52,264 bases of DNA, from NCBI GenBank assembly GCA_012516855.1, contig JAAYWB010000077.1, positions 1 through 52,264 of the forward strand, written 5' to 3'. The notes under the pieces are model-generated. The model searched no databases, was not told the DNA's origin, and saw nothing but the letters and a program-made list of their open reading frames with translations. A program made the translations under genes and the position numbers. Within the stretch, counting starts at the first letter, position 1. The number at the start of each line of letters is the position of its first letter. Source of the stretch: Candidatus Cloacimonadota bacterium. GTDB lineage: Bacteria; Cloacimonadota; Cloacimonadia; Cloacimonadales; Cloacimonadaceae. Shown piece after piece: positions 4,004 through 23,383 of the stretch.

Positions 4004-6625
4004 TTAGTAGCGGTATTCAAGGCTGAGGCGGATGGTGTTTTCCTTGTGTTCCACCCGCTGATACAGGTTTTCACCTTGCACAGGCACGTTATACTGGCGG
4101 ATGCTCAGTTCCTGCGTCTGATAGGTTTTATTTCTGAATTTCAGAGAAAGATACATATTGCGTGAGATTCTGGAATGCAGGGCCACCCAGGCTTTCATGC
4201 CCTTTTCGCCCATGAAGTCGATTTCCATGTCTTCCCAATCCCAGTGCGAAATGCCATGCCCGAACCAGTAGATGAGTGAGCCCTGCAGCTTCAGGTTGGC
4301 GTTGAAGTTGTGGGTGTAGTTTACACCAACGTAATCGCCGGTCATCAGGGTTTGGGCAGCCGCCATGGTGTTGTTTCCCGGCAGGGCCGGATTGGTGAGT
4401 GAGGTGTAGGGAGGGCTCAGAACCGTGTTGTAGCGGTATTCGAACTCCAGGAAGTCGCGGTTGGAAAGGAAGGTGCGCACGCTGAAGGTGTATTCGTCGG
4501 TCTTGGAAACACCGCGTTCGGCATAGTCGTCATAGCGGTTGGTCTGGGTTTTGAAGCGCGCGCGCAGGGCGATCTGGTAAAGGGGCCGGAACTCCAGTTC
4601 CGTTTGCAGGCGCACGGAGCGGCGGCCGTCGGTGAGGCGTTCCCAGATGTCCAGGTAGCTGCGTCCGATGGTGAAGAAGCGGTGAAATTTATACCGGGTT
4701 TCGAAGTATATTCCTGATTCCGGCTGGGATTGGGACGCGTTCAGATAGATGTCTGAAAGGGTGGGGTTAGTGAGCGTGTAAACGTTCTTTTCCAGGATGG
4801 TGTCGTCGAAGCGTTCGTGCTCGGAGAAGGAATTGCTGTAGGGGTTGTCGAAACCGATGTCGTAGTGGCGGAAGAGGCTTAGGAAATAGAGGTTGTCGAA
4901 CTGGGTGTAGGCGCTCACCAGGTAGGCCTTGGGATCGTCGCCCAGCTTGAAATCCGAGCCGTCCACACTCAGTTCCGCGTATTCACCCTGCACGGAAACG
5001 TTGCTGATGGTGGTCTGGGCGTCGAAACCCAGCACCCGGCGGTAGTTGCGTGAGTAGGTGTCCGTCAGGGTGCTGTAGAGGCCGGCAATTTCGGCGTCCA
5101 TCATTTTGAATTTGGGATAGTAGTAAGAATCCCTCACCAGTAGCATCCTGAGGTCGTTCCATCCCGGCACCACGAAGTGGGCGTCGTCGTAAAGCGCTGT
5201 GTAGGTGGTGAAACCCAGCTTTGTGCCCAGGAAGGGATTCACCTGCACGTGCGTTCCCCAGAGGGTTTCGCGCAGGACGTCCTTGCGGTAGGCGAGGTTG
5301 ATGTAATCCGTGGCGTAGGGCGAGCCGCTCTGGAGTTCATTGTTGAAATAGGCCTCGGCTTCGAGCAGTTCCTCCGTGCCAAAGCGCGTGGTAGGTATCA
5401 CATAGCTGAAAAGCTTGTTCTTGCCGCCTTCCTGGATTACTTTGCCGTCCCGGTCCACATAGGCCACCGCGTCCTTGTTGTCCTGCGAAACCCAGCCGGA
5501 AACGCCGAACCAGGGGTTTGTGATCTCGAGGGCGGCGCCGCGCAGGGCGTATTCCTGGGTTCTGGAAAGGTCGGGAGTGAGGCCCAGGATGCGTTTGCTG
5601 AAGCCGTAGCCGGTCTTGCGGGCGCTGTAATAATCCGTGTTTTCCATCACCAGGCCCTCCCCGAAGGTGGCGCGGTAATGGCCCAGGTAGAGTTTCAGGC
5701 GCGTGTTGTCCAGCAGCGGCAAATCGGTGTTTTCGTAGCCCGCGTAGAATTTGGAATCGGCCACGATCTCGGCCGGGTCCTTGTCCCTGACGGGGGTTTC
5801 ACCCTTGGGGCTGTAATACATCCAGCCCACCTTGTAGTTGTTGCCGTAGCGGGCGCGCAGCTTCACGAGGACGTCGGGGTTGAGTTCCTCCATGTTGAAG
5901 TAGCCCCAGTAGGAAAGGTCCTTGCGGTGGGGAACCGTCACGCTGGAATTGCCGTAATCGCTACGCAGGAAGCTCTCGTGATACATGTCGTAGGCGCCTT
6001 CCTCCAGGTAGCGGGTGTAATACTGCAGCTTGGCGTCCCACATGAAGCGGTTTTTCACCGGCGGTTCCTTGTAATAGACGTAGCTGCGGAGGTTGGTGTA
6101 GCCGTAATAGCTGAGCCCCGGCGAATTGCGCAGGTCGCGTGTGTCCGCGATCGTGTCGCCTTTGGCTGTTCGGGTGAGGATGCCGACCGCATCGACGGCG
6201 GAAACGTTGGGCAGGCTGATGAAGTCGTCGAAGTGCATCTTGTTCACGTTTTGGGGCGTCATCAGATAGTCTTCCCAAACGTCGGACATGCCTTCGGATG
6301 CCCCTTCGTTGCTGTCCAGGCGCTCCAGCAGGTCGCGGATCTCGTCCCGCCTGGCCGCCACTTCGTCCTCCTCTATGTACAGCGAAACCACTGCCAGGTT
6401 TTTGATGCGCAGCAGGGTGGGCTGGTCGATGGAAGGAATCTCCCGCAGCTGGTAAATGTCGCTGAAAACGGAGATGTAGGTGCGGTAGTCCAGAATGTCC
6501 CGGGCTTGCCGTTCCGTTATCGGCAGTTGCAGAAGTTCTTCGAAGTTGGCGGTGTTAAGATCCACTTTGGCGGCAATCTGCCCCAGACAAAGCAGGGCAA
6601 AGAGCAAGACAAATAACTTTTTCAT
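4004..6625 (-). CDS. helix-hairpin-helix plus outer-membrane barrel protein
   Basis: An 873-residue exported protein with a signal peptide at 1-19. Immediately after it comes a ComEA-like helix-hairpin-helix segment (VDLNTANFEELLQLP, 21-35, continuing to about 75) and a second HhH-like region near 105-165 (NKMHFDDFISLPNVSAVDA). From about residue 190 the sequence is rich in aromatic and alternating strands (YYTRYLEEG, YLGHYRATFGEGLV) and ends RLSLEYRY, as expected of a large outer-membrane beta-barrel. HhH domains normally bind DNA, so their presence on a barrel protein is unusual; a role in DNA or protein traffic is possible but not shown. It is the first gene of the four-gene operon, with AAGGA upstream of the ATG. 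Confidence 0.72.
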   Translation of the reverse strand: MKKLFVLLFALLCLGQIAAKVDLNTANFEELLQLPITERQARDILDYRTYISVFSDIYQLREIPSIDQPTLLRIKNLAVVSLYIEEDEVAARRDEIRDLLERLDSNEGASEGMSDVWEDYLMTPQNVNKMHFDDFISLPNVSAVDAVGILTRTAKGDTIADTRDLRNSPGLSYYGYTNLRSYVYYKEPPVKNRFMWDAKLQYYTRYLEEGAYDMYHESFLRSDYGNSSVTVPHRKDLSYWGYFNMEELNPDVLVKLRARYGNNYKVGWMYYSPKGETPVRDKDPAEIVADSKFYAGYENTDLPLLDNTRLKLYLGHYRATFGEGLVMENTDYYSARKTGYGFSKRILGLTPDLSRTQEYALRGAALEITNPWFGVSGWVSQDNKDAVAYVDRDGKVIQEGGKNKLFSYVIPTTRFGTEELLEAEAYFNNELQSGSPYATDYINLAYRKDVLRETLWGTHVQVNPFLGTKLGFTTYTALYDDAHFVVPGWNDLRMLLVRDSYYYPKFKMMDAEIAGLYSTLTDTYSRNYRRVLGFDAQTTISNVSVQGEYAELSVDGSDFKLGDDPKAYLVSAYTQFDNLYFLSLFRHYDIGFDNPYSNSFSEHERFDDTILEKNVYTLTNPTLSDIYLNASQSQPESGIYFETRYKFHRFFTIGRSYLDIWERLTDGRRSVRLQTELEFRPLYQIALRARFKTQTNRYDDYAERGVSKTDEYTFSVRTFLSNRDFLEFEYRYNTVLSPPYTSLTNPALPGNNTMAAAQTLMTGDYVGVNYTHNFNANLKLQGSLIYWFGHGISHWDWEDMEIDFMGEKGMKAWVALHSRISRNMYLSLKFRNKTYQTQELSIRQYNVPVQGENLYQRVEHKENTIRLSLEYRY

Positions 6626-7028
6626 CGCTTTTCCTTACTATGCGTTATACTCATTGAACTCGATATTTCTTCTCGAAAACACATTCTTTGAATGCCTGCC
6701 AATCTGTAAAGCTATTTTTTCTGCCAGAACCGCCTCGGCTTGAAACAACAGGAAATCCACTCAATTTGAAAGAACCATGAATTCCAACCCCTTATCATGC
6801 CCCATCGGTCAGGCCCTTAACCCTCGAGCCCTTTCCCATCCCACGCCCCTCGCTCAATCCCCGCATCGAATGCGGGCATCGTGCGGGAGGCGAGTCAGAA
6901 ATCAAAGAAAGGGCCTTAACGGCCGATCAGTGGGCTCCGCTCTCGCGAGGCAGGATTAATGATTGACAAAAAGACCCCACTTTAAAATTGGTCAGGAAAC
7001 AAGCAAACTAACCATCACTGGAGGATAA
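6626..7028. other. divergent intergenic region with a dispersed repeat copy
   Basis: This 403-bp gap separates the minus-strand envelope operon from ppdK. The part next to the operon (6626-6800) is AT-rich and should hold its promoter; no clear -35/-10 pair was found. Positions 6814-6953 hold a copy of the dispersed intergenic repeat described separately. The start-proximal side has TTGACA at 6963-6968 and TAAAAT at 6983-6988, but the spacing of 14 nt is too short for a confident promoter. GGAGG at 7020-7024 is the ppdK ribosome site. Confidence 0.6.
6814..6953 (+). repeat. dispersed intergenic repeat, copy 1 (5' two-thirds)
   Basis: Colinear with the copy at 13829-14048: a pyrimidine-rich start (CCCTTAACCCTCGAGCCC), a perfect hairpin CCCGCA-TCGAA-TGCGGG at 6860-6876, the tail CATCGTGCGGGAGGCG, and the palindrome GGCC-TTAAC-GGCC near 6912-6924. 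The third block of the full element is missing. No reading frame is conserved between copies, so it is a non-coding repeat. Confidence 0.7.
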
Positions 7029-9749
7029 ATGCCTGATACCAAACGTGTTTACCTATTCGGTAACGGAAGTGCCGAAGGCAAGGCGGATATGAAGAATCTG
7101 CTGGGAGGAAAAGGCGCCAACCTCGCCGAGATGAATCTAATCGGCGTGCCTGTGCCCCCCGGATTCACCATCACAACTGACGCCTGCAATGAATATACCC
7201 AACTGGGTGAAGCCAGGATGCGGGAACTGCTTCTGGCCGAGGTGCAAAGCGCCGTGAAGTATGTCGAAGGCCTGATGCACATGAGTTTCGGCTCCAACGA
7301 AAATCCCCTTCTGCTCTCCGTCCGCAGCGGCGGCAGGGCTTCCATGCCCGGCATGATGGACACCATCCTGAACCTCGGAATGAATGACAACGCCGTGAAC
7401 GGCATCATCAAAAAGACCGGCAACGAACGTTTCGCCTGGGACAGTTACCGCCGCTTCGTGCAGATGTACGGAGACGTGGTTCTGGGCCTCAAACCTGCCA
7501 GCAAAGAAGAACACGACCCCTTTGAAGTGCTCATCGACGAGATGAAAAAAGAAAAGGGCGTGAAACAGGACCTCGAACTCAGCGCGGCTGATTTGAAAGA
7601 ACTGGTGGCCCGCTTCAAGAAAGCAGTGAAAGACAACACCGGCCACGATTTTCCGGATGACCCCTGGGAACAGCTTTGGGGCTCGATTTTCGCCGTGTTC
7701 AATAGCTGGAACAACGACCGCGCCGTCTTCTACCGCCAGCTTAACGGCATCCCGGACGACTGGGGCACCGCTGTGAACGTTCAGGCCATGGTTTTCGGCA
7801 ACATGGGCGAAACCAGCGCCACCGGCGTGGCCTTCACCCGCGACGCCGCCACCGGCGAGAACCTTTTCAACGGCGAATACCTCATCAACGCCCAGGGCGA
7901 AGACGTGGTGGCGGGAATCCGCACCCCGCAGCAGATCACGAAGATAGGCTCGCAGCGCTGGGCCGAACTGGCCGGGGTTTCCGAAGCCGAACGCGCCGCT
8001 AAATATCCCTCCCTGGAAGAGGCGATGCCCGGGGTCTATCAGGAGCTTTTCGCTACCCAGAAGAAGCTTGAGGACCACACCAAGGATATGCAGGACGTCG
8101 AATTCACCATCCAGGAAGGCAAGCTCTGGATGCTGCAGACCCGCAACGGCAAACGCACCGGTTTTGCCATGGTGAAAGTGGCAATGGACCTCGTGCGCGA
8201 AGGCAAGATTGACGAAAAGACAGCCTTGTTGCGCATGGAACCCAACAAGCTGGACGAGCTTTTGCACCCCGTCTTCTCCCGAGCCGGCCTGGCCAAAGCC
8301 ACCGAAATCGCCAAAGGCCTGCCCGCCTCTCCGGGCGCCGCGAGCGGACAGATCGTCTTTTTCGCCGAGGACGCCGAAGCCTGGGCCGCCCAGGGCAAAC
8401 AGGTCATCCTCTGCCGTCTGGAAACCTCTCCGGAAGACCTGCGCGGCATGAACGTCGCCAAAGGCATTCTCACAGCCCGCGGAGGCATGACCTCCCACGC
8501 CGCTGTGGTTGCCCGCGGGATGGGAAAATGCTGCGTTTCGGGAGCAGGAGCAATCAATATCGACACCAAGACCCGCACCATGAGCGCGGACGGAAAGACC
8601 CTCAAGGAAGGCGACTGGATTTCCCTCAACGGCAGTACAGGCCAGGTTTTTGAAGGCAAGATCGAAACCGTGGACCCGGAACTCAGCGGCGATTTCGCCG
8701 AGATCATGGCCCTGGCGGAAAAATACACCAGAATGTATGTGCGCACGAACGCCGACACACCCAAGGATGCCACTGTGGCCCGCAGCTTCGGAGCCAAGGG
8801 CATCGGTCTCTGCCGCACCGAACACATGTTCTTTGAAGGCGACCGCATCAAAGCCATGCGCGAGATGATCCTCGCTACCGACGAAGCCGGACGCAGAAAG
8901 GCTTTGGGCAAGCTTCTGCCCATGCAACGCGGTGACTTTGAAGGCATCTTCACCGCCATGGACGGACTCCCCGTGACCATCCGTCTGCTGGACCCGCCCC
9001 TGCACGAATTTGTGCCCCACGAGGAAGCGCAACAAAAGATAATGGCCGACGAACTGGGCCTCAGCCTGGAGACGGTGAAAACCCGCGTGAACGCTCTGCA
9101 AGAGATGAACCCCATGCTGGGCCACCGCGGCTGCCGCCTTGGCAACACCTATCCCGAAATCACCGAAATGCAGGCCCGCGCCATCATTGAAGCCGCTCTG
9201 AACGTTCAGGCCAAGGGCGTGAAAGTGATGCCGGAGATCATGGTCCCGCTGATCGGCACCGACGTTGAATTCAGGCTGCAGGAACAGATAATCCGCGCCA
9301 CGGCCGAAAAGGTCTTCGCGGAGAAAGGCGCCAGGGTTGAATACCTGGTGGGAACGATGATCGAGATTCCGCGCGCAGCCCTCATGGCGGACAAGGTCGC
9401 CGAAAACGCTGAATTCTTCAGCTTCGGCACCAACGACCTCACCCAGATGACCTTTGGCTATTCACGCGACGACGCCGGGGTCTTCCTGCCGATCTACATC
9501 CGCAAAAACATCCTGAAACACGACCCCTTCCAGATCCTGGACCAGGAAGGCGTGGGTCAGTTGGTGAAGATCGGCACCGACCGCGGACGCCAGACCAGGC
9601 CCAACCTGAAAGTTGGTATCTGCGGCGAACACGGCGGCGAGCCAAACAGCGTGGAATTCTGCCACCGCGTGGGCATGGACTACGTGAGCTGCTCACCCTA
9701 CCGTGTGCCCATCGCCCGTCTGGCAGCGGCGATGGCAGCCATTCGCTAA
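7029..9749 (+). CDS. ppdK: pyruvate, phosphate dikinase
   Basis: A 906-residue enzyme that interconverts pyruvate, ATP and Pi with PEP, AMP and PPi, a common energy-saving step in anaerobes. The N-terminal ATP-grasp domain begins LLGGKGANLAEM (about 24-35). The central phosphohistidine domain has GGMTSHAAVVARGMG with the catalytic His at residue 490, preceded by the Thr that a regulatory protein would phosphorylate. The C-terminal PEP/pyruvate barrel has the acid-base Cys at residue 865 in CGEHGG. The length is normal for the family. GGAGG lies 4 nt before the ATG, and a strong terminator follows, so it is probably monocistronic. Confidence 0.98.
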   Translation: MPDTKRVYLFGNGSAEGKADMKNLLGGKGANLAEMNLIGVPVPPGFTITTDACNEYTQLGEARMRELLLAEVQSAVKYVEGLMHMSFGSNENPLLLSVRSGGRASMPGMMDTILNLGMNDNAVNGIIKKTGNERFAWDSYRRFVQMYGDVVLGLKPASKEEHDPFEVLIDEMKKEKGVKQDLELSAADLKELVARFKKAVKDNTGHDFPDDPWEQLWGSIFAVFNSWNNDRAVFYRQLNGIPDDWGTAVNVQAMVFGNMGETSATGVAFTRDAATGENLFNGEYLINAQGEDVVAGIRTPQQITKIGSQRWAELAGVSEAERAAKYPSLEEAMPGVYQELFATQKKLEDHTKDMQDVEFTIQEGKLWMLQTRNGKRTGFAMVKVAMDLVREGKIDEKTALLRMEPNKLDELLHPVFSRAGLAKATEIAKGLPASPGAASGQIVFFAEDAEAWAAQGKQVILCRLETSPEDLRGMNVAKGILTARGGMTSHAAVVARGMGKCCVSGAGAINIDTKTRTMSADGKTLKEGDWISLNGSTGQVFEGKIETVDPELSGDFAEIMALAEKYTRMYVRTNADTPKDATVARSFGAKGIGLCRTEHMFFEGDRIKAMREMILATDEAGRRKALGKLLPMQRGDFEGIFTAMDGLPVTIRLLDPPLHEFVPHEEAQQKIMADELGLSLETVKTRVNALQEMNPMLGHRGCRLGNTYPEITEMQARAIIEAALNVQAKGVKVMPEIMVPLIGTDVEFRLQEQIIRATAEKVFAEKGARVEYLVGTMIEIPRAALMADKVAENAEFFSFGTNDLTQMTFGYSRDDAGVFLPIYIRKNILKHDPFQILDQEGVGQLVKIGTDRGRQTRPNLKVGICGEHGGEPNSVEFCHRVGMDYVSCSPYRVPIARLAAAMAAIR

Positions 9750-22667: not shown

Positions 22668-23024
22668 AATAATTCACAAGCCCAAAAACCCTGTGTGAAT
22701 TATTATCTCATTGTTCCCCAACATGTTAACCCGAATAATTCACAAATATCCCTCTCTTATATACCCGGAAAACGGCATGAGGGGCAGGGTATGCTGGTAA
22801 GGGGATAGATGTATTTATATAATATAATAAAATATAAAACTATAATATATCATATATATTCTATCTATATCTCTTATATATAATTATCCTGCATTGCCTC
22901 TCCCTCCGGTCATCAGGTTAGAGCCGTATGTAATAGAGAGCTATATTTGTGAATTATTCGATCTATCTCATTGCCAGCCAGCGCGTTAATAATTCACACA
23001 GGGTTTTTGGGCTTGTGAATTATT
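22668..23024. repeat. 357-bp dyad element with six AATAATTCACA sites and an AT-rich core
   Basis: Six copies of the 11-mer AATAATTCACA alternate in orientation at 22668-22678 (+), 22694-22704 (-), 22734-22744 (+), 22948-22958 (-), 22988-22998 (+) and 23014-23024 (-). Every pair is symmetric about the same centre, 22846. The outer arms form a perfect 38-bp inverted repeat (22668-22705 with 22987-23024), and an inner pair is perfect over 18 bp (22732-22749 with 22943-22960). The middle (about 22811-22885) is almost pure A and T. The element begins 8 bp after the stop of the secreted-protein gene. No target-site duplication is evident. It could be a miniature transposon-like element, a multi-site binding region or a long hairpin RNA. 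Confidence 0.85.
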
Positions 23025-23229
23025 CGGAATCACGGCCGTTATTTCCCACCCGCTAAAACAAGTCCCCCAATTCAATCCGTTAATCCGTCCGATCCGCTAA
23101 TCCGTATGAAAATCACTCTGTTACATCCGTGTTCATATCCGCGAAAATCCTGGACAAACCCCTGTTTTCCCGCCCACTATCAATTCCAGCCTGACTCCTC
23201 CTTTGCCCTATCCAATTAGCCTCTCACTT

Positions 23230-23276
23230 ACTTCCCGTTGACTTCCCGTTTGAAAGGCGGGAACTCAGCGGGAAGT
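23230..23276. other. strong stem-loop without T-tail
   Basis: ACTTCCCG pairs with CGGGAAGT (23230-23237 with 23269-23276), and the stem continues inward through TTCCCG / CGGGAA (23243-23248 with 23258-23263), with one C-C mismatch in about 19 pairs and a 9-nt loop. CTCAC (23223-23227) can also pair with GTGAG (23286-23290). No U-tract follows, so it is not a normal intrinsic terminator. Confidence 0.6.
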
Positions 23277-23383
23277 GAACGGGATGTGAGTGGGATGGGG
23301 TAAACGGCGAAGCCCGCTGCTTTCATCAGGGTTTTCTGATGGTTTGCAGCATCGACTGAGGCAATGAATGATTCTTACAATAC

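Follow-up and report, generated by a model that had tools for sequence, protein, structure and literature searches.

The mirrored block at positions 22668–23024 of the 52,264-nucleotide stretch of Candidatus Cloacimonadota DNA analysed here (hereafter the window) is, on balance, probably a solo copy of a cis-acting, origin-like dyad that belongs to a family of mobile primase-helicase elements in Cloacimonadota, as judged from sequence comparisons. The dyad brings to light a family of self-spreading replication elements that is apparently undescribed and of which no description was found in the open-access literature searched. A full element encodes a P-loop ATPase of the DUF3987 type with a C-terminal winged helix, in some cases with a BT4734-like/PriCT-2 AEP primase upstream of it or fused to it. 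By analogy with plasmid pRN1, the dyad beside the helicase gene in sister species is probably the replication start of the element.

Geometry of the dyad in the window

The block has no strand of its own and is mirrored exactly about position 22846. Six exact copies of the site AATAATTCACA alternate in orientation, at 22668–22678 (outermost left, forward strand), 22694–22704 (left, reverse), 22734–22744 (inner left, forward), 22948–22958 (inner right, reverse), 22988–22998 (right, forward) and 23014–23024 (outermost right, reverse); the start and end coordinates of all three mirror pairs sum to 45692. The outer hairpin module on the left (22668–22705), in which two sites surround a 15-nt loop, and its counterpart on the right (22987–23024) form a perfect inverted repeat (38/38). 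Both inner spacers, at 22705–22733 and 22959–22987, are 29 bp long, and TATCTCATTG occurs with both in the same, direct orientation, at 22704 and at 22964. Alternating orientation, pairing, centre and spacer lengths are thus all as claimed in a preliminary description of this DNA. When the window was shuffled 100 times with its dinucleotide composition preserved, no shuffle reached six copies of the site, even if one mismatch was tolerated, and no further copy occurs elsewhere in the 2.25-Mb genome.

The mirror homology extends beyond the sites over the whole of the arms, which span ~100 bp each (77% over 101 bp). Read outward, the left arm (22668–22764, reverse strand) has, in this order, a TATAAGAGAGG box, site 1, the spacer, site 2 in inverted orientation and site 3, and the right arm (22925–23024, forward strand), with which it was aligned, has a TAATAGAGAG box followed by the same order of parts. 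The spacers are homologous as direct repeats only (26 bp, 73%), so that one of them is flipped against the mirror symmetry that the arms otherwise show. Between the arms lies an AT-rich core, a putative unwinding element (22816–22890), with ~92% A+T over 60 bp compared with ~55% GC in the region. Stretches of 50 nucleotides with at least 47 A or T are rare in this genome: the search for them returned 27 overlapping positions, usable as a count only given that most positions overlap, and those listed fall within a second dyad on contig 42.

Such exact geometry had been read as a sign of recent or selected symmetry. The geometry itself stands, and its best explanation is arm homogenisation together with spacer inversion, both of which have been reported as outcomes of template switching at inverted repeats (PMC8604942). 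The agreement with these products accounts for the exact geometry without an assembly artefact; template switching would keep the two arms of one dyad alike and could, on occasion, invert a spacer.

Downstream of the dyad, positions 23118–23213 (forward strand) resemble a decayed outer border, as they match locally the stretch that leads from the dyad to the TTACCCACTATATATAGGGG border in helicase-bearing elements. Local scores against four references were 30–39, compared with shuffle maxima of 24–28; the score against a fifth reference did not exceed the shuffles of that reference. This match suggests that the window dyad descends from a larger element.

The surrounding DNA holds further repeats. 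Degenerate 9–10-bp periodic repeats (ATCCGTCAATCCGTT, TTCGTGTAATTCGTGGA, CACAGAGGCACAGAG) recur in intergenic DNA of the genus, often just outside dyads, e.g., at 23060–23160 of the window. A separate long, near-perfect hairpin of tandem units (CACTTACTTCCCGTTGACTTCCCG...) occupies 23219–23300 upstream of tyrS, and in sister genomes the hairpin upstream of that gene differs in sequence and is similar in make-up (L044, L045). Weak matches to Rfam miRNA models fall on this separate hairpin (23208–23300), outside the dyad. A possible promoter type of the lineage, TTGACAAA followed ~15 bp later by TTTTTGTGG, is also seen upstream of tyrS (L037–L045).

Dyads and replication genes in the genus

A DNA search with the window element detected similar AT cores in the same genus, and it is core similarity that links the members of the dyad family. 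The family has about 50 members in 10 of the 13 genomes of the genus, all genomes compared being drafts. The anatomy was constant across the dyads read: the core is followed on the way out by an outward box (e.g., TATAAGAG), then by site 1, the spacer, site 2 in inverted orientation and site 3. Arms mirror each other within a dyad and the site sequence varies between dyads: it is AATAATTCACA in the window, ACCTATTCACA in G006:C3, GAAAACCACA in G006:C4, CGAATAATAAGCA in G003:C65 and TCAAATTCGCA in G002:C36, and G001 has tandem GAATTGATA-like units. Because the sites vary, a pattern search for AAGAG-N8-TTGTGAAT yielded mostly unrelated places. Both arms could be read in 49 dyads. The best scores between arms had a median of 66 within a dyad and of 19 when the arms came from dyads in separate genomes (99th percentile 55); the within-dyad score exceeded the 95th percentile of the between-genome scores in 41 of the 49. 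The search for site clusters proposed in the preliminary description ends with all six copies of AATAATTCACA in the window and with relatives that share the layout under other site sequences. This recurrence in other genomes with different sequences makes an assembly artefact, named there as what would undo the finding, unlikely.

The same variation bears on the weak option of an origin-like role through DnaA. An AT-rich core with repeated 11-mers and a local peak of cumulative GC skew near 22 kb would suit a chromosomal oriC with variant DnaA boxes. Yet no TTWTNCACA cluster was found, dnaA and dnaN were not recognised among the window ORFs, the skew follows gene orientation, and genomes carry several dyads with differing sites instead of a single locus; we find an oriC scarcely credible at all.

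The outward boxes bring up a further reading, in which TATAAG boxes drive two mirrored hairpin RNAs from a bidirectional non-coding locus. TATAAGAG-like boxes do precede site 1 in most arms, and the strand folds very stably (z −11). Such a fold is expected of any inverted repeat, though, and no Rfam family matches within the dyad, arm-only folds differ between elements, and pairing of sites 2 and 3 is imperfect in G010:C114. The long hairpin RNA considered earlier is hence not favoured, and we regard an RNA locus as very improbable.

At many loci a gene runs towards the dyad and stops just short of it, with a terminator-like hairpin in between; the structured dyad thus lies just 3′ of a replication gene at the gene-bearing loci, and the window copy has no such gene next to it. 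The converging gene encodes a DUF3987 protein (PF13148), a P-loop ATPase and putative helicase. An AT core of at least 85% occurs within 1 kb 3′ of the stop codon in 15 of the 18 DUF3987 genes of the genus (within 560 bp in 13), the exceptions being a gene at a contig end (G001:C4), one with half a dyad (G002:C20) and G008:C92. The distance from core to gene end has a median of 249 bp (range 163–928; 30 full or truncated genes). A similar gene-dyad layout was observed in a sister genus (G021, L166), and the dyad is absent beside DUF3987 genes in other families of the order.

Several loci have a second gene upstream of the helicase, with BT4734-like_N and PriCT_2 domains (PF08800 and PF08707), i.e., an AEP primase. 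In some loci primase and helicase are fused into one protein of ~800–900 aa, and at many helicase genes an adjacent primase is missing. Both aspartates of the primase DxD motif are invariant in the alignment, the structural model is confident across the catalytic domain, and the best fold matches are cyanophage S-2L PrimPol (E 4.5e-5) and LigD polymerase domains. Helicase residues 404–452 are modelled as a winged helix of two helices and a two-stranded wing (pLDDT ~85); the fold-search matches of this segment are weak (E 0.04–0.2), and its predicted identity derives from topology and probability rather than from E-values. In its middle the helicase is modelled weakly, and its ATPase core poorly (mean pLDDT 67.5). 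Searches of viral, phage and plasmid collections returned no close relative of the helicase, one remote phage match, and no match to the 38-bp arm.

Other genes recur around these units. A family of ~150-aa proteins (MKVKFKYGI.TYSGKLDE..), without a match in Pfam, PHROG or PADLOC, is found near helicase/dyad units (L140:1923-2369, L138:3836-4285, L120:2167-2619, L144:10913-11023, L031:20-265) and is often preceded by the 20-bp motif TTACCCACTATATATAGGGG. Two copies of this border motif bound ~10.7 kb at L031:303-11033, possibly a mobile element with cargo; besides primase, helicase and dyad, this stretch contains a Sel1-like protein and a protein of 1314 aa in which one segment resembles a P-loop. 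A type ISP restriction-modification gene lies directly past the dyad in G006:C8 (L140:5656-8760).

Comparison of closely related helicase genes revealed that the winged-helix end changes along with the dyad. In G002, the genes on contigs 36, 10 and 20 share 92–100% identity, measured in 60-bp windows and with few exceptions, until ~180–240 nt before the stop codon; past that break, identity drops to background (0.4–0.7) through the gene end and the dyad. The break lies at about the same place in the pairs G006:C3/C4 and G002:C13/C36. For the pair G002:C36/C5, which has the common site TGCGAATTTGA, similarity persists through the dyad. Genes of more than 90% identity thus lose it from the winged-helix region through the dyad when their dyads differ. 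A Mantel test across 30 elements relates winged-helix identity to the similarity of the arms (r 0.49, 0 of 2000 permutations), a correlation to which common descent contributes and for which it could account alone; the break points are the stronger argument. Winged helix and dyad behave as if they were one specificity module.

These linked genes suit the earlier suggestion of an initiator binding platform, given that the dyads adjoin a helicase gene ending in a winged helix, and they shape the mechanism that we infer. The winged helix would bind the cognate repeats of both arms, the ATPase would melt the AT-rich core, and two complexes, loaded by the mirrored arms, would start outward priming on both strands, the dyad serving as an origin as in pRN1.

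Solo copies and movement

Fragments of the helicase that keep the C-terminus and lack the N-terminus number 25 in the genus, some of them cut by contig ends, compared with two or three N-terminal-only fragments. Nearly all 5′-truncated remnants with enough downstream sequence are followed by an AT-cored dyad, the exceptions being G000:C45 and G008:C27. The family also includes many solo dyads. In G001, those on C6 and C27 share 85–90% identity with the dyad next to the fused gene of C14; the ~500-bp solo copies, 83–90% identical, sit in unrelated flanks, and identity ends at the outermost repeats. Such dispersal in a sister genome fits the miniature mobile element that had been envisaged for the window.

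No helicase gene or remnant adjoins the window dyad, which is thus an orphan copy. The window genome has zero DUF3987 domain matches and three C-terminal helicase remnants on other contigs (C63, C45 and C78, the last with a weaker AT core downstream), and the window copy may therefore be inactive. A clean empty site was not found via orthologues of tyrS and the upstream gene, as the neighbourhood is not syntenic; in the relatives read, an AT-rich core lies beside these orthologues only in AT-richer genomes. The small contigs checked, from fragmented MAGs, displayed no terminal overlap indicative of a circular form, and the collections searched contained no plasmid or viral-contig relative.

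The solo copies could also be explained if the dyad were a miniature transposable element or an element end, with repeats that bind a helicase-containing transposition complex, and not an origin. Their high identity in unrelated flanks and their termination at the outermost repeats agree with this, as does a recurrent 20-bp border motif outward of several elements. But the motif fits equally well as a leader belonging to the neighbouring 150-aa gene, no transposase or integrase was recognised among the proteins scanned, the aligned G001 copies lack a target-site duplication, the AT-rich core is central, and the linked proteins are replication proteins. A transposition site thus deserves some weight and is unlikely. 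L031 and L035 made it attractive to regard the TTACCCACTATATATAGGGG border as a terminal inverted repeat, a reading that was downgraded on account of many copies upstream of the 150-aa gene or away from dyads.

On the solo dyad of G001:C6, ~45 bp of flank is repeated inverted on the other side (L150 ~6560–7150), as if the palindrome had grown outward. The inverted flank could speak for a neutral palindromic relic, in which the symmetry was made and is maintained by template switching and slippage, the block being without function in the window genome. The homogenised arms and the inverted spacer, both reported template-switching products (PMC8604942), and the absence of an intact helicase from the window genome point the same way. 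Neutral palindromes, however, would not be expected to be linked to helicase genes or to lose identity jointly with the winged helix, and an inactive window copy is still compatible with a functional family; we consider a purely neutral origin quite unlikely.

We therefore return to the origin-like dyad of a primase-helicase element, of which copies without protein genes, including that in the window, would persist as satellites. A broader scheme is more tentative, possible rather than probable: the elements would be chromosomal mobile replicons in which a swappable module of winged helix and mirrored dyad sets origin specificity, origin-only satellites would spread by means of the primase-helicase of other copies, and replication together with template switching at the dyad would produce movement without a transposase. 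If the origin-like reading holds, uncultured Cloacimonadota would gain a new family of mobile replicons, and the pRN1-type origin layout of archaeal plasmids and some phages would extend to chromosomal elements of a bacterial phylum. Dozens of natural initiator/site pairs with swapped specificity would allow a winged-helix code for origin recognition to be read directly, and origin-like sites would persist as gene-free satellites inside chromosomes. The dyads are also an unusually clear case of palindrome homogenisation, with sites identical within one locus and different at every other.

Comparison with known systems

Among known repeats, REP/BIME and MITE sequences resemble the dyads as intergenic palindromes in alternating orientation that are mobilised or maintained by proteins encoded elsewhere. 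The dyads differ from them in their low copy number per genome, in a site sequence that is different in each copy, and in being tied to replication proteins, apparently not to RAYT or an IS transposase. A high-copy shared REP sequence, as in REP/BIME, is not seen, the six copies of AATAATTCACA being the genome total and sites differing between dyads. The G001 solo copies do have a MITE-like trait, as short non-coding elements with terminal inverted repeats in several copies; neither a target-site duplication (aligned copies) nor a cognate transposase (proteins scanned) was seen.

The closest precedent for the dyad elements, by analogy of layout, is pRN1, whose family comprises Sulfolobus plasmids and also phage BIP-1. 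In pRN1, a stem-loop at the origin downstream of orf904, a gene for an AEP primase, helicase and winged helix, is required and restores replication when moved in isolation elsewhere on the plasmid; across the family the palindrome structure is kept and its sequence is not conserved (PMC4234260). The dyad elements share an AEP primase and a helicase with C-terminal winged helix (in part of the family), a terminator hairpin with a large palindrome behind it, immediately 3′ of the gene, and a palindrome of variable sequence and constant structure. In contrast to pRN1, the helicase is of the DUF3987 type instead of SF3, the primase is often absent or encoded by a separate gene, and the dyad combines three repeats in each arm with an AT-rich core. 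Its copies are moreover apparently chromosomal, dispersed and in many cases gene-free, and they belong to a bacterial phylum, Cloacimonadota.

A second parallel is offered by RSF1010, which has two initiation sites for its primase, ssiA and ssiB (PMC6925257, PMC4234260), and by IncQ satellites, which keep oriV after loss of the rep genes (PMC6925257). The likeness lies in two primase initiation sites, repeats, a helicase and bidirectional priming, as proposed for the dyad, and in gene-free satellites that retain an origin. The dyad elements differ in that no separate iteron-binding protein was seen and that they are apparently not plasmids, and the dyad arms are inverted copies of each other.
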